A stretch of DNA of 59,759 nucleotides, taken from positions 1 to 59,759 of the forward strand of contig DATCTN010000011.1 in NCBI GenBank assembly GCA_036567965.1, given 5' to 3'. Under the pieces are notes generated by a model that was given only the letters and a program-made list of their open reading frames with translations, was not told where the DNA came from and made no database searches. Origin of the DNA: Candidatus Kryptoniota bacterium. Its GTDB lineage: Bacteria > Bacteroidota > Ignavibacteria > Kryptoniales > JAKASW01. Both the position numbers and the translations under genes were made by a program. This document shows positions 6,415 through 22,514 of the stretch, piece after piece (the stretch's first letter is position 1; each line of letters starts with the position of its first letter).

Positions 6415-9400
6415 ATGGAAAAAATAATCGTTCCTCTGTGCAGGATCATGCGGATCCTCCTCATTTTTGCCTTAACAGCGCAAGCTCGACCAAATCCGGG
6501 GGATACTAGGGATAAAAGCAATTCATTCCGTATCAAGAGCTACCAAAAAAAGACAGATGGTGTAATCTTTGAGTTGGTGCGGGGTAAACTGAAATTGCAA
6601 GTCTTATCCGATGACATCATAAGGGTCGTCTATACTCCGAGCGACAGTTTCTCAACACGCGAAAGTGTATCCGTGATAAAAAAAGAGTGGCTGCCGGTGC
6701 ATTACAAAGTCGGTGGTGATAAATCATTTGTAACTATGAATACAAGAGCAATAAAGGTGAAGGTCAATAAGACAACCGGCGCCATCGCGTTTTATGACAG
6801 GAAGGGAAAGCTTCTTCTTGAAGAACCGGCAAATGGCAAGAGTATGATTGCTGCAAATATCGCCGGCGAAGACACCTGGACAGCAGAACAGAAATTCATG
6901 TCTCCGGAAGATGAAGCGCTTTATGGATTGGGTCAGTTCCAGGATGGAATAATGAACTGGAGGAATGTATATGCGCGGCTCAAGCAAAGAAACACAACGA
7001 TCGCAATGCCTGTAGTTATTTCAAACAAAGGATACGGATTGTTTTGGGATAATACTTCCTACACCGAATTCAACCCCGACCTGACGAAGATTGATATGAA
7101 CTTCGATGGGAACAGTCTGTCGGCAATGCTCAAGACAAAGGAGAAAGGCACTTACATTTTCGATATTGAAAGAAACAATGTCAACGCCATCGAATTGAAA
7201 GTCGGAAACCAAACCATATACAGACACGACACAGGCGTTCATGTGTCGTCCAGTGTTGCTAAAGTTGACCTCGAAGCCAACAGGGAATATACTGTTGAAC
7301 TAATCTGCCATGACAAAAGACTGACACCTGCCATTCCCGATCGGTACCTAGCGCCCGGTGACGGCAGTCCAGGTGGACACGGTCTCAAAGGCGAATATTT
7401 CGCCAACAGAAATCTGGAGGGAACTCCATCATTTGTAAGAGTCGATCCGAAGGTTGACTTCGATTGGGGGAGCGGTTCACCAGCGATGGGATTCCCGACG
7501 GACAATTTCTCGGTTCGATGGACTGGGAAACTGAGCGCTCCGAAGACAATCGACAGTTGCACTCTGACAGTCACATCCGACGATGGCGCACGGCTTTATG
7601 TCGATGGACAAATGGTAACCAACGGCTGGGTTGAGCGTGGATCCACGACAGATGAGTATAAACTGAAACTCGTTGCCGGCAAGGAGTATGATATAAAGGT
7701 TGAATACTTCGAAGCATTCGGTGGTGCATCTGTAAAATTGGGATGGGACATCGGAACTTCAGGAAAAGAAGATGACGAACTATCGAAGGACGTTCACATT
7801 TATTATCGTCATCCGGCTCAGGCGGAAGAGACAGTCTGGAAATCTCTGGTCGCAGATGACATAGATTACTATTTACTATATGGTCCGGAGAGCGATCGGA
7901 TCGTAGGCGCGATGCGTGAATTGACCGGAAGGGCACCGCTTTATCCGAAGTGGGCTTACGGTTTGTTCCTGTCCCATATGGCGTGGAACGATCAGAAAGA
8001 AATCATTGATGTCGCGAAAGGCCATCGCGAAAGGAACATTCCTTTTGATTGCATCGTGCAGGACGGCACGTATTGGAAGCAATGGCCGGATAATGAATGG
8101 GGATCAAGCCGTTTCGATTCCGCCAGGTATCCCGATCCTGTCAGCATGATAACAGCTGTGCATGACATGAACAGTCATTTCATGATTTCTGTGTGGCCGC
8201 GTTTTAATAGCAAGACCGACACTTACAAAATGCTCGAACCAAAGGGATATATGTTAGGTTTGCAAAAGACATCTGCGGCGGGGAACGAAGGAGTTGCACT
8301 CGAAGATGTCACTACCAACGCGGTTTACGACGCCTTCAATCCAAGTGCGCGTAAAATGTACTGGCAGTTCATAAATGACAGGTTGTTCTCATTGGGAGTT
8401 GATGCATGGTGGCTCGATGCGACGGAGCCTGAATGGAACTATGATTTTTCCAGGGCTCGTACTTACCTGGGGACCGGCGAGCGTTACTTGAACTGCTATG
8501 CGCTCATGTCAATGACGGGCGTGTATGAGGGACAGCGCTCCACTGAATCAACGAAACGTCCTTTTATCTTAACGCGGTCTGCATTTCCGGGCCAACAGAG
8601 ATATGCAGTGACTTCATGGTCCGGCGATATTGGCTATGACTGGACAACGTACAGAATACAAATTGCGGCGGGGCTCAATTTCGCAATTACCGGTGTGCCT
8701 TACTGGACGACGGACATTGGCGGTTTTGTCCCCGGGGCCGACCTGAACAGCGCCGACTATCGCGAGCTGCTCACGAGATGGTTCCAGTATGGAGCGTTCT
8801 GTCCGATCTTCCGTGTGCACGGATGCAGGCAGACGGAGCTCTGGCGCGGCGGTGAGGACTCTGAGAAGCAATTAGTGAAAACGGATAATCTGAGATACAG
8901 GTTGATGCCTTACATTTATTCGCTCGGCGCGATGGTAACGTTTGATAATTACACTATCATGCGTCCGTTGATAATGGATTTCAGGACTGACAGAAACATT
9001 TTGAATATTGCCGACCAGTTCATGTTCGGGACTGCATTTCTCGTGAACTCGGTAACCGAACCGAAAGCAATGAGCCGCAAGGTTTACTTGCCTGAGGACA
9101 AAGGCGGATGGTACGATTTCTGGACAGGGAGTAAGAATGCCGGAGGAAGAACAATCGAGACTCCGGCTCCGATCGATATCATACCTTTATTTGTGAGGGC
9201 TGGGTCGATAATACCTATGGGCCCCTATGAGCAATATGCCTCTGAGAAAAACGATCCAATCGAATTGAGAATCTACTCCGGTGCGGACGGGATGTTCACT
9301 CTTTATGAAGACGAAAACGACAATTTCAATTATGAAAAAGGAAAAAAGGCAACCATCCGGTTCTCCTGGGACGAAAAGTCAAAGACTTTAACAATTGGCG

Positions 9401-11306: not shown

Positions 11307-13121
11307 ATGAAAAAGCATATCAAAAAGGTCGCCGTGCTCTTCCCACTCATTGCGTTCGTGTTCCTGGTTGAACGATGCCAGGCTGCCAAGCCGATTATCC
11401 ATTACACGGTCACCATCGACTCCGCGAATCTGTCCGGCTTCCGCGTCGACATGAAAATTCATGACGCGCCCGACACATTATGGCTTGCCTTCGCTCAACA
11501 TCCTGAGTACAACGAATTCTTCTGGAAGAATCTAAGAGATCTGACGGTGGAATGTGATGGAGAGATCGTTCCCATCGTGCGTGAAGACAGCGCTCTTTGG
11601 AGGGCGGTCGTGCGAAAACCCGACGTTGTTGTCCATTACCGATTTGAAATGACGAAAGAAACTAGCCCAAGGCGCGGAAGCTGGCGCTTGTTCCTTCGTG
11701 AAACAGGGGGACTCATCGGTGGAGTGCAGACATTTCTGTACATCGTTGGATGCGAAGATGCCCGCTCCACTGTAACATTGGTGATTCCTGCGAGTTGGCG
11801 GGCAGCTACCGGTCTCTCATCGGAAGGCAGTTTGAATGCGTATTCCGCATCCAATGTGGATCAGCTTGTCGACTCTCCGATCCTTTTAGGAAAATTTCAT
11901 GAATGGACCTTTTTCGTCGATGACATTCCTCATCACGCAGTGTATTTGCCTTTGCATGGGACTGTACCATTCGACACAAGTGTATTCGTGGACGACATTG
12001 AAAAGATCGTGCGGGCAGCAATGGCGATATTCAAACGTGCTCCATACCGGGAATATTGGTTTCTTATTCAAGATGGCGCTGACGATGCTCTCGAGCACCT
12101 TAATTCTCTGTCTCTTGGTGCGGAGAGTTCGCAGCTGGCGAACAACCCGCACGCCTTTGACGAAGAAATTGCGCACGAGTTCTTCCACACCTGGAATCTC
12201 GTTAGCATTCGTCCAAAAGAACAGACCAAGATCACCTACAAGGAGACAACTCCTACGCCGGTCTTGTGGTGGTCTGAAGGAGTCACGATCTACTACGCGA
12301 ACAAGATATTGCGGCAGACGGGAATCCTTGACACTGCGGAATACGTCCGGAGCTTTGAGAACAATATTGCGTCGTACTACCAGAGCGCGGGCAATTCCCG
12401 GATGTCCCCGGAACATGCAAGCCTGACCGTCAATCATCCTGACCCGGCAGACAGCGGCTACACTGCAAGCTATTACACGCAGGGCATGCTTTTCGGACAA
12501 TTGCTGGACATTGCCCTTCGTGATTCGTCCCATATGCGCAGAGGACTGGATGACGTGATGAAGGCGATGTTTGAGAAGTATACCAGGTCGGTAGGGTTCA
12601 CAAATAAGGATCTCGAGGAGACTTCGAGTCAAGTTTGCGGTTGCGACTTGCATCAGTTTTTTCAGGACCATATATGGGGCATACATCCGCTGAACCTTGA
12701 ACCATACCTGAACAGCATCGGGTTGCGCGCTGTTATAAACCGCGTGGTAGCGAAAGACTCAGCAGGGAAACCTCAACCGGATCTTCGAGTTTATGCGTTC
12801 ACGCAGTTGCATGATGGTCATGTGCGAATCTATATCTACGGTGTTCCGACGGCCTGGTGGCGCGCCGGCCTCCGGACCGGCGATGATATTTTGGCGGTCG
12901 ACGGTCAACAAATTGGAAGTGCAGACCAGTTTCGTGAAATCATTGCGGGCAAAACGCTGGGAGACAGTCTCGTCATTCAGTATCTCCGTGATGCTAAGCC
13001 GGAGCAGACCACGGTTCATCTCACTTCATATGAACTGGTAAAGGTGGACTTGGATGAAATTCCGAACCCTACTCTCCGTCAGCAGGAAATGCTGAAGCTC
13101 TGGATTGCAGGAACGCTGTAG
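11307..13121 (+). CDS. M61 family glycyl aminopeptidase-like metallopeptidase with PDZ domain
   Basis: 604-residue secreted zinc peptidase. After a signal peptide (about 1-26) comes the M61 N-terminal beta domain (30-200), then the catalytic domain with HEFFH (His290, Glu291, His294) and a downstream Glu324 in WWSEG as the expected third zinc ligand. A C-terminal PDZ domain (about 505-585) is marked by RAGLRTGDDILAVDGQQI. Known M61 enzymes remove N-terminal Gly or Ala and share this M61-PDZ layout. The length is typical. The start has only a weak Shine-Dalgarno. Neighbours give no functional hint, since the gene sits between a glycosidase and a decayed region. The protein probably acts in the periplasm on peptides. 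Confidence 0.9.
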   Translation: MKKHIKKVAVLFPLIAFVFLVERCQAAKPIIHYTVTIDSANLSGFRVDMKIHDAPDTLWLAFAQHPEYNEFFWKNLRDLTVECDGEIVPIVREDSALWRAVVRKPDVVVHYRFEMTKETSPRRGSWRLFLRETGGLIGGVQTFLYIVGCEDARSTVTLVIPASWRAATGLSSEGSLNAYSASNVDQLVDSPILLGKFHEWTFFVDDIPHHAVYLPLHGTVPFDTSVFVDDIEKIVRAAMAIFKRAPYREYWFLIQDGADDALEHLNSLSLGAESSQLANNPHAFDEEIAHEFFHTWNLVSIRPKEQTKITYKETTPTPVLWWSEGVTIYYANKILRQTGILDTAEYVRSFENNIASYYQSAGNSRMSPEHASLTVNHPDPADSGYTASYYTQGMLFGQLLDIALRDSSHMRRGLDDVMKAMFEKYTRSVGFTNKDLEETSSQVCGCDLHQFFQDHIWGIHPLNLEPYLNSIGLRAVINRVVAKDSAGKPQPDLRVYAFTQLHDGHVRIYIYGVPTAWWRAGLRTGDDILAVDGQQIGSADQFREIIAGKTLGDSLVIQYLRDAKPEQTTVHLTSYELVKVDLDEIPNPTLRQQEMLKLWIAGTL

Positions 13122-13608: not shown

Positions 13609-13903
13609 AGTTCGAGTCATCGACCGTATTCTCTTCTCCATTTGTGGCGAAGCCATCACTTCGTGATAGTACGTCGTATCGCTGATACCGAGTTGCTGGA
13701 CAACTTCTGCCAGCGTCTGACCTTTTGCCATTTGGACTTCTGCCTCTCGCAGCATTGCCACGATCGATTCCACCGTGTGCCGCTTCTTTCCCATGATATC
13801 TCCTCTACGAGGTTCTACGAACTCGTAGAGTCGTAGACCTTTGGTCCTTATGTTACTCGTTTTACTAATATAACATTGGACCGGTTCTTGGGGGACACGT
13901 CAT
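13609..13903 (-). mobile_element. 5' end of an IS3-family element with truncated orfA
   Basis: On the minus strand the element begins with a terminal-repeat-like TGACGTGTCCCCCAAGAACC (13903 downwards), followed by a leader and an AGAGGAG ribosome site five bases before ATG 13794. The frame starts KKRHTVESIVAMLREAEVQ and continues QLGISDTTYY, the typical N-terminus of IS3-family OrfA (helix-turn-helix). Similarity stops after about 46 residues (near 13660). The frame then runs through unrelated bases and ends in MTRTY at 13603, where the dispersed repeat word AGTTCGAGTCATCG (13609-13622) lies. The rest of orfA, all of orfB and the right end are missing, so the element is dead. Confidence 0.75.
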
Positions 13904-13949: not shown

Positions 13950-16118
13950 TCATCTAAGGAAAATAAATCCCACGATGCAGGCGAAAGCACTGATGACACA
14001 AGTCGTGAGTATCCCGAATGACGGCACCAGAACCAGGCTCGCTGCGATTGAACCGAGACATCCGCCGACCAAATCGGCCGAGTACAACCACGTTGAAATC
14101 CGTTCTAGGTCAGTGGCAGCTTTGAAACTTGCCAATGCGAAAATACCGGAGACAAAAAACCCGTCCAGCAGAAGAGCCAGCGAAGCTGACAAGAGCGTCC
14201 CAACCAATCCGGAGCTGATGCCGCAATACACAATTAAGCTCAAAGCTATCAGTCCGAGGAGGATAGCACCTCCAATCAATTTCCTCGCTCCCACATCCCA
14301 CCGTATGAACAGACGATTACCTGCCCACGACCCAATCGCGAGTCCACCCATGAACGTTGTGAGCAGATACCCGATGTCTTGATAAAGTGCCCCACTCTTG
14401 TTCTGGTAGTTGAGGATGAGGACGGTCTCCAGTAGCATTCCGGTGAATCCTGCGGTGACAGTTAAGAGGAACAATCTTGTTGCGACGAATCTCTTCTTGA
14501 AAACTATAACCAGTGCCACAATCATCGTGAGCCAAAAAAAGGGGGACTTGATGGCAGAATCTGTGAGACTCGTCGTATCGGAGTTCAGATCGATTCCACC
14601 TACGAACTTGGACAACCAAATTGAAAGTGTGTAGCCGTAGCAGGCGGGCTTCAGGTCTGAATTCGGATCGACGCTCACTGATGAAAGTAGATTTTCTACG
14701 GTCTTGAATCGATCGTTAGTGTAGACATAGTTGATGTATTCCGGTGAAACCAGCCTGGTATTCAGATGCCTGTTGCGGAATCTGCCGCATAAGATCGACG
14801 TGTCCGCAGTCAGCGGTGAATCCGAAGCGATAAAGACATTTGCTACACCAGGTAACACGACCGTATTTGCGAAGACCGCACGGAGAGCACGGTATATGCT
14901 TCCGTTTCTTTTCACCAGCTGATTGGTCCATAAGTTTTCTGCGGACGGAATCATGAATGCAACTATCCCTTCACGGGTCAGTTCGCGCGAGCAGTGCTCA
15001 AAAAACTCCTGAGTATAGAATCGATTGTTCTGCGCGGACATAGGTTCGGGCATAGCGACGAGTATCACGTCATATGACTGTCCAGTGAATCGACGTGGGT
15101 CCTGATTGATGATGCGGACCCTGCCGTCATAAATTGCATCGCGAAAGCCGGCAGGGAGGTGATTCAAGACTGCCTCTATCATGTTTCTATTCATCTCGAT
15201 ATAGTCGATCGTATCGACAGGCAATTTCAGAAGCTCGAAGATGATTCCCTCCAAGCCGCCGCCCAAAACTAGAATCTTCTTTGGACTTGCCGATTGGAGT
15301 GTAGAGAGTTGTACAAATTCCTCCGCCGCCGTTGTCTCCGTTTCATATGAGAGGGCATCATTTTCGAAGACACAGACTTGTTCCTCCTGTGCAGTTACGC
15401 TTATCCGTCCGTAAGGCGTGTCAAAGGTCCCGACGAGATCCGGATGATTCCAGGAGGTCATCCATCTGCCAATTGATCCTGAGAGACAGATCAACACAAT
15501 CAAGGCGACAAGCCCGATCGTTGACAGATATTTCTCTGCAGGACGATACGACGAATACATTAAAACGACCCCTGCAGAGATTGCCGAACAGAAGAAAGCA
15601 CCAGTAAGGTTTTGGATGCCGAGCATCAGCAAGAACGTTGAAAGAAGTCCGCCGACCACACCACCAGCGCTTTCGATTGCATATGCGTTCGCTAAAGTTC
15701 CGCCTTCCGACATGAATCTATTCGCTGAAAACTGAAAGAGTACACCTGTTAGAAGACTGATCGGGAGCAAAGCCGCGGCGAGCGCCGCAACCTGTAGCTC
15801 GAATGGCAGGTATCCGCCCGGGACGGCTCCAAAAATCACCCTTGTCCCTCGAATGAAGGCGATGTCGATCAACAACACAAGTGATGTCAGCAGGAAAAGC
15901 AAATGGACACGTGCTTCGGCCGGTGGGCCGGAACGCCGTCCGAGTGCGGCTCCAAGCGCGGTGCCGAAAAGCCAGAATCCAAGAGAGAGGACATAAATCA
16001 GTTCTATCCCGTAGAAGGCGACGTTCAGCTCGCGCAGGATGATCACCTGACCGAGGATCGAGACGAGACCGACGGCGATCAGGTAGGCAACGCTGGAAGT
16101 AATTTCTTTAATGCGCAA
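13950..16118 (-). CDS. Polytopic membrane protein with embedded spermidine-synthase-like domain
   Basis: 722-residue protein. About seven hydrophobic segments (1-220) precede a soluble Rossmann-like domain (about 225-470), and several more membrane segments form the C-terminal third (510-722). The soluble domain has the polyamine-synthase nucleotide motif VLGGGLEG (about 280), an acidic IEMN strand end, a DPRRF segment and FYTQEFFEHCSRELTREG, as in spermidine synthase. The usual substrate-binding Asp motif after the fold (DxTDP) is replaced by AMPEP, so the reaction may differ. It starts with TTG 16118 directly after an in-frame stop, with AGG seven bases upstream. It follows the MEMO/AMMECR1 gene by 132 bases on the same strand and is probably co-transcribed. 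It might transfer an aminopropyl-like group at the membrane, but this is inference. Confidence 0.85.
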   Translation of the reverse strand: MRIKEITSSVAYLIAVGLVSILGQVIILRELNVAFYGIELIYVLSLGFWLFGTALGAALGRRSGPPAEARVHLLFLLTSLVLLIDIAFIRGTRVIFGAVPGGYLPFELQVAALAAALLPISLLTGVLFQFSANRFMSEGGTLANAYAIESAGGVVGGLLSTFLLMLGIQNLTGAFFCSAISAGVVLMYSSYRPAEKYLSTIGLVALIVLICLSGSIGRWMTSWNHPDLVGTFDTPYGRISVTAQEEQVCVFENDALSYETETTAAEEFVQLSTLQSASPKKILVLGGGLEGIIFELLKLPVDTIDYIEMNRNMIEAVLNHLPAGFRDAIYDGRVRIINQDPRRFTGQSYDVILVAMPEPMSAQNNRFYTQEFFEHCSRELTREGIVAFMIPSAENLWTNQLVKRNGSIYRALRAVFANTVVLPGVANVFIASDSPLTADTSILCGRFRNRHLNTRLVSPEYINYVYTNDRFKTVENLLSSVSVDPNSDLKPACYGYTLSIWLSKFVGGIDLNSDTTSLTDSAIKSPFFWLTMIVALVIVFKKRFVATRLFLLTVTAGFTGMLLETVLILNYQNKSGALYQDIGYLLTTFMGGLAIGSWAGNRLFIRWDVGARKLIGGAILLGLIALSLIVYCGISSGLVGTLLSASLALLLDGFFVSGIFALASFKAATDLERISTWLYSADLVGGCLGSIAASLVLVPSFGILTTCVISAFACIVGFIFLR

Positions 16119-16250
16119 TCAACGACCTGCGAAATAACAGCCCGAAGTTGCCGGTCAAAAGACTTGATTGAATAATGTCATAAAGAGTGCATGGATGCTG
16201 CGGAAGGCTGTGCAATCAGTAACTTCCTTGCGCAAATCTATTCTGCTCAG

Positions 16251-17765
16251 CTAATGATTCTTCGGCTCACTGAAGACGTCGGCCTGAAAAGTGAAAAGCT
16301 CAGCATTTTTCCAATCGCCCGATTCCAGTCCGGCCTTGTGGCAGAGCTGGTCAAGGAAAACATCCTTGGTCCATCCCGTCTCCGTGGCCACTTGCGGCAG
16401 GAATACGCCTTGTTTGTCTCCCTTTTTTATGACCACTCCATCGCGGCCGAGGACAATGTCATCCGCGCTTTTCACTCTTGTGAACGGAGTCAGGACGGAG
16501 ATTTCAATTTCTGCTTTCGACAATTCGTCTTCTCTGAGAGGCTGGAATCGCGGATCGTTGAAGGCGGCTTGCATCGCCATCGCGCCGACGACAGCTCCGA
16601 GCGGTCTGTCTTCCATCATGTATCCGATGCAGCCGCGCAGCTCGCCGTTCTCATTCAACGTCACGAATGCGCCTCGCTTCATTTTCTGAAGATGTCCAAT
16701 CCTTCGCAGAAGCGGAACCGTTTCAGTTGAAAAATATCTCACAAGGGTTGCGCGTGCATATTTCAAGAGCGCGCTCTTGTCGGCTGAATTGAGGACATAT
16801 GATTCACCGATGGCCGATGTGTCGGATTCTTTGGTGGAAGTCATTTTCCCCCTCCCAATTACAACAGAGCCGTATCCCACAACCCGATCAGCGCTCCCAA
16901 GAGGAGTGTAGCCGGAGTTTGTGTAGCTTACAACGGAAGCGGATGTCGCGCCGAGTTCCTTTGCCGTTGCAATTGCCGCGATTATCGGTGCTTCTCCACA
17001 AGCGCATGTTACCAGCCCCGGCGTACCACGATCAAGCTGGGACTCCATCACCGATCTAATGCTATTTAAATCCAGCGTCGCTATCGTGTTGAGTGTTTTA
17101 TCGTCAACATTAATCGCGTCATCGAATCGTGGGTAATGTGAAAGATCGGAGCTCGCGATTATCAGCACTTTCTTCCCGACAAGAATTCCCGCGACTGCAT
17201 CACCGAATCTCTGGCACATCTCTATGTCAGGCGCTCCAACTATCATTGGCAATATCTTCGTCTTTGGAAAGAGATATTTCACGAACGGCAACTGGACCTC
17301 GATTGAATGCTCTTGCGCGTGAACGGCGAGATTTGCGATCACATCGGGATCTTTCTTCATTAGTTCATCCGCCAGGTCTCCCGCCACTTCAACATCGCCG
17401 ATCGGTGTCCCGAACGCACCGTGCGGATAGATCGCGATCTTGTCAAAACCTGCAGTAGTGTGGTTGGTGCCGAGCACTACGATGATGTCGTATTCTTTTC
17501 CTTTCACCTGGTTGTACGCATCCGCGATTATTTGGCCTGCGAATACGTAGCCCGCGTGTGGCGCAATGATCGCGATCGGTTCATCCAGTGTTGAGGGCTT
17601 CGCCTCGTCGAGAAAGGCTTTTATCGCATTTGTTAACTTTGTCGGATCACCCGGATAGAATTGACCGGCAAATACCGGTTGCCTGACAGGATCAGATGCT
17701 GATTTTTGCCCCTGGCAGGAACTGGCAAGAAGCAAAAAAGCCACGAACCATAAAACCCTTTTCAT
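16251..17765 (-). CDS. Lipoprotein fusion of MEMO-like and AMMECR1 domains (AmmeMemoRadiSam B+A)
   Basis: 504-residue protein starting at ATG 17765 with GAGGTG upstream. The longer frame from 17813 lacks a signal. The leader MKRVLWFVAFLLLASSC ends in a lipobox, with Cys17 as the lipidated residue. The MEMO domain (about 28-305) keeps the metal triad known from human MEMO1: His70 in PHAGY, His102 in GTNHTT and Cys256 in CACGEAP. The AMMECR1 domain (about 325-500) keeps its signature LRGCIG at 376-381. In most genomes these are two separate genes beside a radical SAM gene. Here they are fused and exported as a lipoprotein. Function of the AmmeMemoRadiSam system is not established; an oxidative or copper/iron-dependent modification is often suggested. 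Confidence 0.9.
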   Translation of the reverse strand: MKRVLWFVAFLLLASSCQGQKSASDPVRQPVFAGQFYPGDPTKLTNAIKAFLDEAKPSTLDEPIAIIAPHAGYVFAGQIIADAYNQVKGKEYDIIVVLGTNHTTAGFDKIAIYPHGAFGTPIGDVEVAGDLADELMKKDPDVIANLAVHAQEHSIEVQLPFVKYLFPKTKILPMIVGAPDIEMCQRFGDAVAGILVGKKVLIIASSDLSHYPRFDDAINVDDKTLNTIATLDLNSIRSVMESQLDRGTPGLVTCACGEAPIIAAIATAKELGATSASVVSYTNSGYTPLGSADRVVGYGSVVIGRGKMTSTKESDTSAIGESYVLNSADKSALLKYARATLVRYFSTETVPLLRRIGHLQKMKRGAFVTLNENGELRGCIGYMMEDRPLGAVVGAMAMQAAFNDPRFQPLREDELSKAEIEISVLTPFTRVKSADDIVLGRDGVVIKKGDKQGVFLPQVATETGWTKDVFLDQLCHKAGLESGDWKNAELFTFQADVFSEPKNH

Positions 17766-17837
17766 GAGCCACCTCATACTAGTTGTTGGCCAGATGCTAA
17801 AATGGTTTGGCACGAAGAAGCGAATAGACCACGAAAA

Positions 17838-19079
17838 TCATTTCCAAACACCCGCAATAGGATGGCCGCAGTATTCACAGCAGCCATTGTTAATATGCAT
17901 CTCGACAACGAAGAAGCCCGATCTCTTTATGACGATTTTATTGCAGGAGGGACAGTACGTAGAGTTGCCGGGGTGACCGGGCACATTTCCCACAAACGCA
18001 TAATGGATTCCTTTGGACATGGCAAGGTCTCTCGCGCGTTCAAGGGTCGAAATCGGAGTCGGAGGAAGATTCAACAGTCTATAATCCGGATGAAACCTGG
18101 TAAAGTGTATCGGCACATCAGGACCAATCTCGCCCACGATCCAGCTTGTGAGATCGTTGAGCATCTTGTCAGAATCATTGAGTGTCGGAACCACGAGGTT
18201 AACGATCTCGAGGTGAGTTTTGGTCTTCGAAACCTGTTTTATACTTCGGATGACAGGCTTGAGCTCTGCGTTGCACACCTTCTGGTAGAAATCTTCGCTG
18301 AATCCTTTGAGATCTATCTTTATTGCGTCGAGGACTTCGCACATTTCTTTGAGCGGATCGGCATTCATGAAGCCGCAGCTTACGAGGACGCTTCTGATCT
18401 TTTGCTCTCTTGCTTTGCGCGCGATGTCGGTCAAATATTCCACGAAGACGGTCGGCTCATTGTAAGTAAATGCAATGATCGGCGTCCTTTCCGATTCGGT
18501 GTTGCTCACGATTTCTTCCGGAGAAGTGAAACCGACCTGGTAGTCCTCAGGTTTCGCCTGCGAGATTTCCCAGTTCTGGCAAAATTGGCACGAGAGCGGA
18601 CACCCTGCAGTCGCCAGCGAGTATGCCTGGCTGCCCGGCAGAAAATGAAAGAAAGGTTTCTTCTCAATCGGGTCGGTGTGAATCGCAATTGGCCTGCCGT
18701 ACACGAGACTTCTGAGTTTTCCGTCCGTGTTCATTCGCGCCCTGCATCTTCCGTGTTCACCCGGTTTGATTACGCAACCCTGGGCGCAGAGGAGACATTT
18801 TACAATCGTTCCTTCGTGATCAAATCGGTTAGCACTCTTGATCTCGTCGGATGTATGGCAGCTCATGCAGTCGACATTTTTAGTATCTGTCGAAAGCCAG
18901 AACCGCGCGACCGGTGATTGTTCGGCAAGCTGTTTGAGATAATCTTCTTCAAATCTCTTTGCGGTTCGCGCGAAGAGATCCTTTAGGAAGGGCGGGGAAG
19001 ATAATGCGACGCACGTACCGCCCGCGATAAACGCAGACTCTGTTATGAATTCGCGTCTGGAAAGTGATCGCCCGTTCAT
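17838..19079 (-). CDS. AmmeMemoRadiSam radical SAM protein with Tat signal and extra CxxCH motif
   Basis: 413-residue protein related to pyruvate-formate-lyase-activating enzymes. The radical SAM cluster motif CPLSCQFC gives Cys160, Cys164 and Cys167. Before it is the family's Cys-rich block CLLCAQGC (95-102) with RCRAR (111-115). The C-terminus has two CxxC pairs (YCPSC, CCEYC) that may form a zinc or rubredoxin-like site. Unusual features: the N-terminus carries a twin-arginine motif (SLSRREFITESAFIAGG), and residues 71-75 read CMSCH, the c-type haem attachment motif. The start ATG 19079 has AAAGGG nine bases upstream. It is the first gene of a three-gene minus-strand operon with the MEMO/AMMECR1 fusion (72-base gap) and the membrane spermidine-synthase-like gene. 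Confidence 0.9.
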   Translation of the reverse strand: MNGRSLSRREFITESAFIAGGTCVALSSPPFLKDLFARTAKRFEEDYLKQLAEQSPVARFWLSTDTKNVDCMSCHTSDEIKSANRFDHEGTIVKCLLCAQGCVIKPGEHGRCRARMNTDGKLRSLVYGRPIAIHTDPIEKKPFFHFLPGSQAYSLATAGCPLSCQFCQNWEISQAKPEDYQVGFTSPEEIVSNTESERTPIIAFTYNEPTVFVEYLTDIARKAREQKIRSVLVSCGFMNADPLKEMCEVLDAIKIDLKGFSEDFYQKVCNAELKPVIRSIKQVSKTKTHLEIVNLVVPTLNDSDKMLNDLTSWIVGEIGPDVPIHFTRFHPDYRLLNLPPTPISTLERARDLAMSKGIHYAFVGNVPGHPGNSTYCPSCNKIVIKRSGFFVVEMHINNGCCEYCGHPIAGVWK

Positions 19080-19736: not shown

Positions 19737-22514
19737 TCATTTGTGAATTATAGAAACAAAATGATAACTCCCCGACCCTATTTCGTAAATAGCTCTTCCG
19801 TTCTCGAAGCTAAGGAATTTTACGCCCGAAGCGACGGATGCATTTCTTCCACTCTCCGTCACGGCACTTTCGCTGTGAGACGGAATGTAAATAGTTGCCG
19901 TTGTGTTCGCGGGAATGTCGATGTCCCAACTAAACTTGTCTTCCTCTCTCCTCCAGTAGCTCTTGATCAGACCGTACATCGAGAGATAAGAAGCCTTCAC
20001 AAACCTCAAATCACCTGCCGGGTGTGGATCCATGAAGATGTGTTTGAAGGCCGGACTGTCGATATCGGCTTTGATCCCGGCAAGATCTTCGTAGTACCAT
20101 ACAAGGAGATCGCCCAGGAGCATAACATGATTGCCTGAATTCATGTCGGGAGCGGCAGTATTTCCGTTCCACAGTTCCCAAATGGTCGTTGCACCGTTTT
20201 CAATCATGTATCCCCAGCTTGGATAGTCTTTGTTTTCTGCGAGACGGACCGCAACTTCCGTTCTGCCATAATCGGTCAGTCCGCGCATCATCCACTGTCC
20301 GCCGACCAGACCCGTGCTTACGTGTGTCTTGTTCTCGTGGACCGTCTTGTAAAGGAGATGTTCGAAAACATTTTTCGCCAGGTCGTCCGGCGATAAGTGG
20401 AAAGACAACGCGAGCAAATTGGCCGTCACGGTATTGTTCGAATAGCAAAGACTGTCCCTGTTCAGATAGGTTATGTCTATCGCGTGGCGTACTTTCTCTG
20501 CCAGTGAAGCGTATTCAACTGAGTCCTGAACTTTGTTCAGAAGGTGCGAGTAACCTTCCATTACTGTTAAACAATAATAGAAGTAAGCGGAGCCGATAAA
20601 ATCTCCTGGAGTTATCCGGTTTGGATCTTCGGAATGTATTAGTTCCGGTTTCTCGGGCGGCATGCACCAATCACCGTATGTATCCCTGGGAAGAAGATAA
20701 TTCTTCATGTAATTATCGCGCATATAGAAGAGCCATTTCTTCATGCGGTCATAATTTCTTGCGATGACACTGATGTTCGCGAATTGTCTGTAAAGAGTTC
20801 CGGGAATGATTATAAATGATGACGGCCAGGTCATGTTGTCAGTGTATATCGGCCAGTAGGCGGGTGCCACGTTCGGAATGCTGCCGCCGGGTTTTTGTGC
20901 GTCCGCGATGTCTGTAACCCATTTTGCGTAGAGTGCATTGTTATCGAAAAGGAAAGTCTCTCCGTAAGAATTTGTTGAACGATCTCCAAGCCATCCCTGA
21001 CGCTCGTCGCGCTGAGGACAGTCGGTCGGGATGCTTCGATAATTCCCGCGAATCCCCCAATACGCCGCGTGATAGATCCTGTTCATGATGTCGCTGGAAC
21101 AGCTGAAGCTTCCGACAGTTCTTACATCATCGTAAACTACCCTTCCCCGGATTGTACCCAAGTCGGCATTACCCGGGTATCCTGTCAGCTCGACGTATCT
21201 GAATCCGTGATAGGTGAGTATAGGCTCCCATCGTTCAAGTCCTTTGCCTCCTGTGATGTAAGTGTCCGTTTGTTCGGCAGAGCGTAGATTTGCGGTGTAT
21301 AGATTTCCGTCCGGACGCAAGGTCTCGGCAAAGCGCATTTTGATCTTAGTGGAATTACTCGTCCTGACTTTAAGTGAGACCCAACCCACCATGTTTTGTC
21401 CCATATCATATACATACACGCCCGGCTTGACCTGTCTCATCGATTTGGGAACGAGATTCTGCATCACCTTAATCGGATTTATCATCTGCGCGCTGAGCTC
21501 ATCGGAAGGACTCGCTACTCTCTTGGCGTTCTTCCAATTAGAATCATCGAAGTCTGTCTTGTCCCAGCCGGACATTTCCTTCCTGGCATCGTAGGCTTCA
21601 CCGTCGTATTCGTTATTGGACGTAATCGGTCCGTCGGTGGTTATTTTCCATGTTGTGTCGCTCACGATGTATTGTGTCGAGTTGTCTTCGTTTTCGATAA
21701 CCAACTGGGAAATCATTTTCGGAAAGCCGTAGTTGATCGTTTTCGTCGGCACCATATGGCGGGGCGCGAAAAAGCGTCCGTTGCCGAGGATCACGCCGAT
21801 TTCATTCTTGCCCCCCACGATATACTTCGTGACATCAAATGTTATGCAATAGGATCTCTTCGGGTATTCTGAAAGCGCAGGTGCAAGGACCTGATCACCG
21901 ATCTTATGACCGTTGATGTGCAATTCAAATAATCCCAAACCGCAAACGTAAATCGTAGCTCTTTTAGTTTTGTTCGATGCGTCAAATTGTTTACTGAGGT
22001 AACGTGCAGACAATCTCGTGTGCTCACTGTCCGGATTATCGGTTCCGATGGCGCTATCGAGTCCCACCCAATATCCTTTCCAGTCTGTACTTTTCAACAG
22101 GCCCATGCTCCACTTTGCCGGTTCGCTCCATCCCGATTCGGTGCCGTGGTTGTGCCAGACCTTCACTTTCCAAAAGCACTCCTCGCCCGAAAGAAGCTCC
22201 TTCCCAGCGTAAATCACGTTTATGCTTTCGTCAGATGTGATCTTCTTCGAATCCCAGAGGTCACCATCGTCCGCGTTCAATTTCCTGAGAGAGCTTGCAA
22301 CCAATATTCTATAGGATGTCTGCTTCTCGTTTCTTCGATCCGAGACACTGTACCATGATAGACGCGGGGTGACCACGTCAATCCCGAGAGGATTGACAAG
22401 ATACTCGCACCGCAAATATGATGGATGCAGAATATCTTTCTGATTCCCTTTGGATATGCCTGCACAAAATGCTACGATAAGGAGCGGCAGGAAAATTATT
22501 GGATGTGCTCTCAT
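19737..22514 (-). CDS. Secreted GH78 alpha-L-rhamnosidase
   Basis: 925-residue protein with a signal peptide (about 1-23). The usual bacterial alpha-L-rhamnosidase layout follows: N-terminal fibronectin-like domain starting at LRCEYLVNPLGIDVVTPRLSW, beta-sandwich lectin-like domains, the (alpha/alpha)6 barrel and a C-terminal beta domain. The catalytic region CPQRDERQGWLGD puts the general acid at Glu504 beside Asp503. GATTIWELWNG holds the expected general base Glu780. It cleaves terminal rhamnose from plant glycosides or pectin-derived chains. It is a single minus-strand gene lying back to back with the sugar ABC operon, so the 765-base gap between them probably holds divergent promoters. 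Length and motifs are fully typical. Confidence 0.95.
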   Translation of the reverse strand: MRAHPIIFLPLLIVAFCAGISKGNQKDILHPSYLRCEYLVNPLGIDVVTPRLSWYSVSDRRNEKQTSYRILVASSLRKLNADDGDLWDSKKITSDESINVIYAGKELLSGEECFWKVKVWHNHGTESGWSEPAKWSMGLLKSTDWKGYWVGLDSAIGTDNPDSEHTRLSARYLSKQFDASNKTKRATIYVCGLGLFELHINGHKIGDQVLAPALSEYPKRSYCITFDVTKYIVGGKNEIGVILGNGRFFAPRHMVPTKTINYGFPKMISQLVIENEDNSTQYIVSDTTWKITTDGPITSNNEYDGEAYDARKEMSGWDKTDFDDSNWKNAKRVASPSDELSAQMINPIKVMQNLVPKSMRQVKPGVYVYDMGQNMVGWVSLKVRTSNSTKIKMRFAETLRPDGNLYTANLRSAEQTDTYITGGKGLERWEPILTYHGFRYVELTGYPGNADLGTIRGRVVYDDVRTVGSFSCSSDIMNRIYHAAYWGIRGNYRSIPTDCPQRDERQGWLGDRSTNSYGETFLFDNNALYAKWVTDIADAQKPGGSIPNVAPAYWPIYTDNMTWPSSFIIIPGTLYRQFANISVIARNYDRMKKWLFYMRDNYMKNYLLPRDTYGDWCMPPEKPELIHSEDPNRITPGDFIGSAYFYYCLTVMEGYSHLLNKVQDSVEYASLAEKVRHAIDITYLNRDSLCYSNNTVTANLLALSFHLSPDDLAKNVFEHLLYKTVHENKTHVSTGLVGGQWMMRGLTDYGRTEVAVRLAENKDYPSWGYMIENGATTIWELWNGNTAAPDMNSGNHVMLLGDLLVWYYEDLAGIKADIDSPAFKHIFMDPHPAGDLRFVKASYLSMYGLIKSYWRREEDKFSWDIDIPANTTATIYIPSHSESAVTESGRNASVASGVKFLSFENGRAIYEIGSGSYHFVSIIHK

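Follow-up and report, generated by a model that had tools for sequence, protein, structure and literature searches.

A conserved AmmeMemoRadiSam gene trio with export signals and a spermidine-synthase-like membrane protein: a candidate envelope-located radical SAM system

The radical SAM, MEMO and AMMECR1 components of the AmmeMemoRadiSam system (TIGR04337, TIGR04336 and TIGR04335, respectively), like spermidine-synthase-like proteins, are usually located in the cell interior, and we know of no radical SAM enzyme that works outside the cytoplasm. Memo-AMMECR1 systems were reportedly described before, likely in a 2019 JBC paper on the Memo/dioxygenase superfamily. A radical SAM protein related to those of 'Memo-Ammecr1 systems' is mentioned, with a citation of Burroughs et al. 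2019, in PMC7159879. In the literature found on radical SAM proteins with Tat signals, of which the text of PMC10924467 was searched, no description of an exported radical SAM enzyme was seen. Among membrane proteins, fungal NHMT, an N-terminal histidine methyltransferase, joins seven TM helices to a spermidine-synthase-like domain; it is SAM-dependent, methylates secreted LPMOs and has lost the D/E of the GxG(D/E)G motif, the residue that binds decarboxylated SAM (PMC10349129).

We analysed a 59,759-nucleotide stretch of a Candidatus Kryptoniota genome (contig DATCTN010000011.1, GCA_036567965.1), called the window below, in which all three AmmeMemoRadiSam components adjoin one another and score above their family cut-offs. 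An earlier note on this DNA had proposed three consecutive minus-strand genes, all of which we recovered with the boundaries listed in Table 1. The first encodes the radical SAM protein (rS), which reaches 371.8 bits against the NCBIfam profile TIGR04337 (cut-off 220), retains the CxxxCxxC motif in the alignment and has the pyruvate formate-lyase activase fold (best match 3c8f, E 5e-13). It resembles the pyruvate formate-lyase activating enzymes in HMM similarity too (TIGR02493, 9.5e-17), but differs from them in its predicted export and in additional Cys motifs at either terminus; no glycyl radical enzyme was seen adjoining it. Its N-terminus, MNGRSLSRREFITESAFIAGG..., combines a twin-arginine motif with a hydrophobic stretch, and with TatC encoded in the genome the protein is, by sequence, a probable Tat substrate. 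The Tat signal that had been noticed on this protein is borne out, both arginines being invariant across the 16 aligned homologues, and an artefact of start choice is thereby ruled out as the source of the leaders. The second gene fuses MEMO (TIGR04336, 240.8 bits, cut-off 26) to AMMECR1 (TIGR04335, 170.9 bits, cut-off 99), and its likelier start is the ATG at 17765, giving MKRVLWFVAFLLLASSC followed by QG, not the GTG. Both halves keep their hallmark residues: the human MEMO metal ligands H49, H81 and C244 (PMC11081632) align with intact H71, H103 and C257, and the RGCIG of AMMECR1 is intact. Its proposed lipoprotein nature holds for the window, whereas in some homologues (e.g. L018 and L020) the signal is of the Sec type and lacks a lipobox.

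Table 1. Features of the trio; positions are those of the window.
Feature	Position	Strand	Evidence or remark
rS: AmmeMemoRadiSam radical SAM enzyme, 413 aa, Tat-targeted (predicted)	17838..19079	-	TIGR04337
Twin-arginine signal MNGRSLSRREFITESAFIAGGTCVALSSPPFL, RR = residues 8-9	18984..19079	-	R8, R9 and F11 invariant in 16/16 homologues
CMSCH (CXXCH), residues 71-75, c-type-heme-like	18855..18869	-	Alignment; extra conserved His88 at 18816-18818
Radical SAM cluster motif CPLSCQFC (C160, C164, C167)	18579..18602	-	Cys invariant in alignment A1; PF04055
MEMO-AMMECR1 fusion lipoprotein	16251..17813 (GTG-start ORF; likely start 17765)	-	PF01875 198.8 bits, PF01871 175.5 bits
Lipobox Cys (LLASSC followed by QG)	17715..17717	-	Lipobox-type signal also in L010, L011, L016, L017, L021
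MEMO domain; H71, H103, C257 (alignment A3 numbering)	16860..17678	-	Match human metal ligands
AMMECR1 domain with LRGCIG motif	16272..16766	-	Aligned to PH0010 (1vaj), 1.8e-40
SPD: 14-TM MFS-like protein with inserted spermidine-synthase-like domain, 722 aa	13950..16118	-	
Spermidine-synthase-like domain, residues about 225-500, between TM7 and TM8, predicted periplasmic	14619..15446	-	
L289, replacing the decarboxylated-SAM-binding Asp/Glu of GxG(D/E)G	15252..15254	-	Motif alignment
A355, at the catalytic-Asp position (D-x-x-D-P motif)	15054-15056	-	Motif alignment

Compared with the AmmeMemoRadiSam system as known, the window has a Tat-targeted rS with a CXXCH insert, a fused MEMO/AMMECR1 predicted to be exported, and an added MFS-spermidine-synthase-like protein (SPD). 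The same genome carries elsewhere a second rS-AMMECR1-MEMO set, as standalone genes without signals, and the trio is thus its exported counterpart. The earlier note mentions neither this second set nor the CXXCH insert, the predicted location of the SPD domain on the periplasmic side or the flavin/Fe-S partners.

The trio is a conserved system and not a peculiarity of one genome. It recurs in Bacteroidota/Ignavibacteria, Desulfobacterota, Acidobacteriota and Planctomycetota, and in the rS-recruited loci L010-L013, L016-L022 and L026, as well as in further loci, the three genes share a strand and follow one another as rS, MEMO-AMMECR1, SPD. The named isolate Dethiosulfatarculus sandiegensis (L027) likewise holds rS, MEMO-AMMECR1 and SPD within a single region. 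Among 156 rS sequences, those that carry export signals fall into a single clade of 66, with a local support of 95. On inspection of its complete N-termini, about 62 in number, 54 have a Tat signal in cis, 6 have one in trans, one has a TM/Sec-type start and one has none; the signals of L010, L018, L026 and L037, missed by the automatic Tat test, were seen on reading the N-termini. SPD lies within 6 kb of rS in 14 of 26 clade members as against 1 of 50 others (Fisher test, p = 1.7e-7), a count restricted to loci recruited by rS alone because SPD-recruited loci give biased linkage counts. Across 247 Bacteroidota genomes, all five full-length SPD genes, one of them at a contig end, adjoin an exported rS. 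By the automatic test, a Tat-bearing rS is present in 16 of 40 Desulfobacterota SPD regions and absent from the other 24, so SPD is not exclusive to this system. These two surveys and the Fisher test together rule out chance linkage. The co-occurrence of such genes with spermidine-synthase membrane fusions, to which the earlier note had pointed, is thus apparent, and its idea of an exported system withstands comparison with related genomes: across phyla the genes are linked and signal-bearing, and TatC is present in 20 of 20 carrier genomes.

Planctomycetota-type loci appear to supply the signal in a different way. Wherever the rS is signal-less and the junction readable, a tiny Tat gene overlaps or abuts it (8 of 8), and rS would probably be exported with this partner encoded alongside. 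These ORFs matched no Pfam or NCBIfam family above curated cut-offs.

In its AlphaFold2 model (pLDDT 86.4, pTM 0.87), the TM part of SPD has the MFS fold, with matches, spanning the whole chain, to SV2A (VIA Z 27.6, 340 aligned, rmsd 4.0) and FLVCR1 (VIA Z 26.6, 348 aligned, rmsd 4.0). PF01564 (Spermine_synth) covers residues 267-400, flanked by two TM blocks, and the domain has the Rossmann-like fold of that family, matching 1uir at 4.1e-34 by profile and 1.3e-12 by Foldseek. A positive-inside bias in 20 of 20 homologues predicts the N-terminus inside and the domain outside; the same signal comes from control membrane spermidine synthases whose catalytic residues are intact, so that topology alone does not set SPD apart. 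SPD shares the N-terminal TM block and PF01564 fold with membrane spermidine synthases of the PRK03612 type, but has seven more C-terminal TM helices and differs at the active site. Of 99 SPD proteins, none has the D/E of GxG(D/E)G and 16 have the catalytic Asp, whereas each of these residues is present in 10 of 10 controls; the SAM-site acidic residue E308 is kept in the window and in 81 of 99, and D340 in 98 of 99. Accordingly, of the embedded polyamine-synthase-like domain that had been read from the sequence, the PF01564 region between TM blocks stands, whereas by its motifs it is not a polyamine synthase; the second, decarboxylated-SAM chemistry suggested for the operon is not supported, and polyamine synthesis by SPD is rejected on the motif evidence. 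This also corrects annotation, in that polyamine synthesis is an improbable role for many of the proteins called 'spermidine synthase' in these genomes.

The predicted ligand of the SPD domain is SAM and not its decarboxylated form, so the domain could be a methyltransferase. On one account, which we consider unlikely though worth weighing, SPD is a plain SAM-dependent methyltransferase of the envelope, analogous to NHMT of fungi, with an exported protein (MEMO-AMMECR1, for example) as its target and an MFS part that serves as scaffold or substrate channel and does not export SAM. NHMT shows the same D/E loss (PMC10349129), which extends to all 99 SPD, and by sequence the two appear alike in joining a TM bundle to a spermidine-synthase-like domain that lacks D/E, with the SAM-site acidic residue kept in SPD; the place of NHMT in the secretory pathway adds to the likeness. 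Also consistent with this are R29, E39 and W49 of TM1/TM2, conserved in 98-99 of 99 SPD and located at the end of the membrane where the domain is predicted to lie. However, such an enzyme would still need a source of periplasmic SAM, and the link to exported rS and FMN/Fe-S modules would go unexplained. Moreover, SPD, whose activity is putative, differs from NHMT in that its 14 TM helices make up a complete MFS-like unit, which the domain interrupts between TM7 and TM8, and in adjoining rS and MEMO-AMMECR1. We prefer the reading in which SPD handles SAM at the outer face, where its periplasmic domain would bind it, and in which the MFS part could carry SAM across the membrane.

Low-potential electrons might reach exported rS by two routes. 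First, FMN_bind and Fer4_5 modules akin to the NosR-like extracytosolic flavin/Fe-S proteins occur in Planctomycetota-type loci, either fused to SPD (L029, L238, L240, L243, L247, L251) or near rS as NosR-like (L038, L258, L233) or Fer4_5 genes (L030, L034). The window has no such module; among the loci examined none was found beside CXXCH-type rS, and most exported rS loci of the non-CXXCH type lack one within the stretch fetched. The main text of a survey of flavinylated systems (eLife 66878) names neither radical SAM, MEMO, AMMECR1 nor spermidine. Multiheme cytochromes were rejected as general partners, only one such neighbour occurring among the clade loci (L178).

Second, a c-type heme on rS itself might serve in the CXXCH type. 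C71, C74, H75 and H88 are kept in 15 of 16 rows of the rS alignment, and in the window's subclade 20 of 23 rS have CXXCH and the extra His in the stretch that links the Tat signal to the core; in the gene lists read for these loci no conserved partner besides the trio was noticed. In sequence, rS has the marks expected of a c-type cytochrome, since its CXXCH lies in an exported segment and every tested carrier genome has genes for cytochrome c assembly (PF01578). There is nonetheless a sizeable possibility, though one we rate below even, that the segment holds Zn, Fe or an extra Fe-S cluster. It resembles cytochrome models no better than expected by chance, other conserved Cys pairs lie at both ends of the rS family, and three close relatives (L022, L169, L171) have lost CXXCH while keeping the remainder of rS. 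Heme c is, besides, normally joined to unfolded chains, whereas Tat moves folded proteins, which counts against heme c on rS. Against a non-heme ligand stand the exact CXXCH spacing with a further conserved His in the exported segment and the unbroken co-occurrence with the assembly genes.

Taken together, we lean, by a modest degree, towards an envelope-located AmmeMemoRadiSam variant with SAM handling and an electron supply of its own. Here, rS would fold and take up its Fe-S clusters in the cytoplasm, be exported by Tat through its own signal or with the tiny partner, and meet the exported MEMO-AMMECR1 on the periplasmic side of the inner membrane; the substrate, at a guess, is MEMO-AMMECR1 itself or a ligand thereof. 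Against this reading it counts that no radical SAM enzyme is known to us to work extracytoplasmically and that periplasmic SAM is not established for these bacteria. Alternatively, rS might do its work in the cytoplasm, either ahead of Tat export or in its course, for instance as a one-time modifier or chaperone, with no catalysis outside and with leaders that just bring the complex to the membrane. Tat carries folded, cofactor-holding proteins, SAM and low-potential reductant are cytoplasmic, and L036 lies inside the exported clade yet has no export signal, all of which favours this alternative. We nevertheless judge it improbable: FMN/4Fe-4S modules recur with the exported clade in several gene arrangements, CXXCH is located in the exported extension, and MEMO-AMMECR1 has Sec/lipoprotein signals and thus would meet the folded rS outside only.

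Finally, the CXXCH insert, SPD as an MFS-like protein whose predicted periplasmic-side domain lacks the decarboxylated-SAM Asp/Glu, the FMN/4Fe-4S modules and the tiny Tat genes are new here. MEMO and AMMECR1 are conserved into humans; since the enzyme's required supplies, in the form of SAM-handling and electron-transfer partners, are encoded alongside, the exported copy offers direct handles on the chemistry of AmmeMemoRadiSam. The system points to the possibility that radical SAM chemistry, so far regarded as exclusively cytoplasmic, extends to the periplasm. We tentatively envisage, with rather less than even confidence, a class of extracytoplasmic radical SAM enzymes which use Tat in cis or in trans (via a tiny overlapping peptide), receive SAM via an MFS protein with a periplasmic SAM-binding domain and electrons via their own heme c or a NosR-like flavin/Fe-S chain, and act on exported MEMO-AMMECR1. 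If such periplasmic activity is true, the usual premise that restricts radical SAM enzymes and SAM itself to the cytoplasm would no longer hold, and the system would provide a bacterial counterpart of the eukaryotic problem of getting SAM into the secretory pathway.

The earlier note had described three consecutive minus-strand genes encoding a radical SAM protein, a MEMO-AMMECR1 lipoprotein and a polytopic membrane protein with an embedded polyamine-synthase-like domain; their coordinates were confirmed on the sequence and their identities were borne out by family profile matches. The first is an AmmeMemoRadiSam radical SAM enzyme (TIGR04337; hereinafter rS) and the third an MFS-like membrane protein with a spermidine-synthase-like domain (hereinafter SPD). 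The gap between the first two genes is 24-72 nt, depending on the start, and that between the second and third is 132 nt, while in relatives, such as loci L017 and L018, genes of the trio overlap. The families, linkage, clade, signals, motif losses, folds and partners presented here were all established by computation. A literature search recovered AmmeMemoRadiSam in few papers, each naming it once, and found no exported radical SAM enzyme; given the earlier comparative literature, part of the findings on the trio may be known already.

Coordinates of the trio genes in the window and of tiny Tat ORFs in two homologous loci
Feature	Position	Strand or placement
rS, AmmeMemoRadiSam radical SAM enzyme	17838-19079	minus
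MEMO-AMMECR1 fusion with lipoprotein signal	16251-17813	minus
SPD, polytopic with PF01564 domain	13950-16118	minus
Tiny Tat ORF, L029	about 8963-9110	just after rS
Tiny Tat ORF, L038	about 9014-9170	just after rS

Upstream of the trio, a gene-free stretch of ~650 bases separates it from a same-strand alpha-L-rhamnosidase with five Pfam domains (19737-22514). Directly downstream lies a short minus-strand ORF (13620-13794; MGKKRHTVESIVAMLREAEVQMAKGQTLAEVVQQLGISDTTYYHE...), which by eye looks like a remnant of an IS3-family OrfA, and an M61 glycyl aminopeptidase with a PDZ domain (11307-13121) points toward the trio from the plus strand. The genome also holds an additional set in which rS, AMMECR1 and MEMO are encoded separately and lack signals (C7:99275-101680; L005, L134); the window trio is thus its putative exported counterpart rather than the sole copy. 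Another contig (C17:22781-23584; L003) bears a third MEMO homologue, which is divergent (80 bits) and distant from any strong rS match.

Scanning species genomes with the window rS as query yielded 80 loci. Those nearest the window, from Bacteroidota/Ignavibacteria, Candidatus Electryonea and Hatepunaea, Desulfobacterota and Acidobacteria, display a Tat-signalled rS, a signal-bearing, exported-type MEMO-AMMECR1 protein, if one is present, and SPD next to these where the contig is long enough, with L014 and L023 among the exceptions. A phylogeny of 156 rS core sequences places the exported-type enzymes in a single clade with 66 members (local support 95); among the remaining sequences, a membrane-type N-terminus occurs only in L042 and L258. 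When only rS-recruited loci are counted, SPD lies within 6 kb of rS in 14/26 members of this clade versus 1/50 of the others (Fisher p = 1.7e-7). Full-length SPD is present in only 5/247 Bacteroidota genomes, and all five copies adjoin an exported-type rS, one of them across a contig end. Desulfobacterota have it in ~76/198 genomes; rS occurs in 22 of 40 SPD regions there, 16 of the 22 being Tat-signalled by an automatic test, and in 18 of 40 regions from Planctomycetota, many of them on short contigs. In certain Desulfobacterota loci (L174-L177, L183), SPD and a signal-less rS are encoded on opposite strands ~1.5 kb apart, an arrangement unlike the exported trio.

The structure model of rS (pLDDT 76) has the fold of the pyruvate formate-lyase activating enzyme. 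Its Tat signal is followed, ahead of the core, by an insert with a CXXCH motif plus an additional His, found in 15 of the 16 rows of the rS alignment and in 20/23 over the whole window subclade sampled, with the motif lost in L022, L169 and L171. The natural reading of these residues would be one c-type heme ligated by two His, and cytochrome c assembly genes and TatC are present in every CXXCH carrier tested; the insert matches cytochrome models weakly, and it possibly binds a metal instead of heme. Past its hydrophobic stretch the window enzyme shows no obvious signal-peptidase site, and hence may remain membrane-anchored.

A different configuration is seen in eight loci with a signal-less rS (L029, L038, L238, L243, L247, L257, L275, L287), which comprise every locus of this type with a readable rS junction. 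Here, a tiny Tat ORF (~50-65 aa) either overlaps the stop codon of rS or comes immediately after it; its signal is RR-type (RK-type in L038), its C-terminus is mostly [WL]AG or WLG, and in L029 it is broken by masked bases. Searches of these ORFs against Pfam and NCBIfam returned no family over cut-off. Export of one partner on the Tat signal of the other is described as an established mode in PMC10924467, and the tiny peptides could be substrates instead of such export partners.

FMN_bind and Fer4_5 are fused to SPD in six Planctomycetota proteins, and NosR-like genes (L038, L258, L233) or Fer4_5 proteins (L030, L034) occur near rS. None of the FMN_bind, Fer4_5 or NosR-like genes was found beside CXXCH-type rS in the clade loci, and many non-CXXCH rS loci have no electron module within the sequenced stretch examined. 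This complementarity of CXXCH and flavin/Fe-S modules, albeit in small counts, agrees with an exported radical SAM enzyme receiving its electrons by alternative routes.

In the MEMO-AMMECR1 protein, H71, H103 and C257 align with the iron/copper ligands H49, H81 and C244 of human MEMO1 (PMC11081632), and the RGCIG motif of the AMMECR1 domain is intact; thus, both domains look functional. The confident AlphaFold2 model of SPD (pLDDT 86) resembles MFS transporters in its membrane part, the match spanning the whole chain, and spermidine synthases in its inserted domain. The positive-inside rule predicts an N-in topology with this domain at the outer face in 20/20 homologues, a result to be taken with caution as catalytically intact membrane spermidine synthases yield an identical charge signal. 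Such intact PRK03612-type proteins (L209-L218) likewise look N-in by charge, and several have seven TM helices, a combination that would leave a catalytically active spermidine synthase domain on the non-cytoplasmic side of the membrane. R29, E39 and W49, on the predicted outer side of TM1/TM2 of SPD, are conserved in 98-99 of 99 proteins and missing from ten PRK03612-type controls.

The Asp/Glu of GxG(D/E)G, needed for binding decarboxylated SAM (PMC10349129), is retained in 0/99 SPD proteins (six have a gap at the position) as against 10/10 controls. The catalytic Asp is kept in 16/99, and acidic residues 308 and 340 in 81/99 and 98/99, respectively. SPD shares the loss of this Asp/Glu with a 7-TM protein that is a SAM-dependent protein methyltransferase (PMC10349129). 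Based on this precedent, along with the Asp/Glu loss and the kept acidic residues, SPD may be read as a protein that handles SAM on the outer side of the inner membrane and would act as methyltransferase, as SAM carrier, or in both roles.
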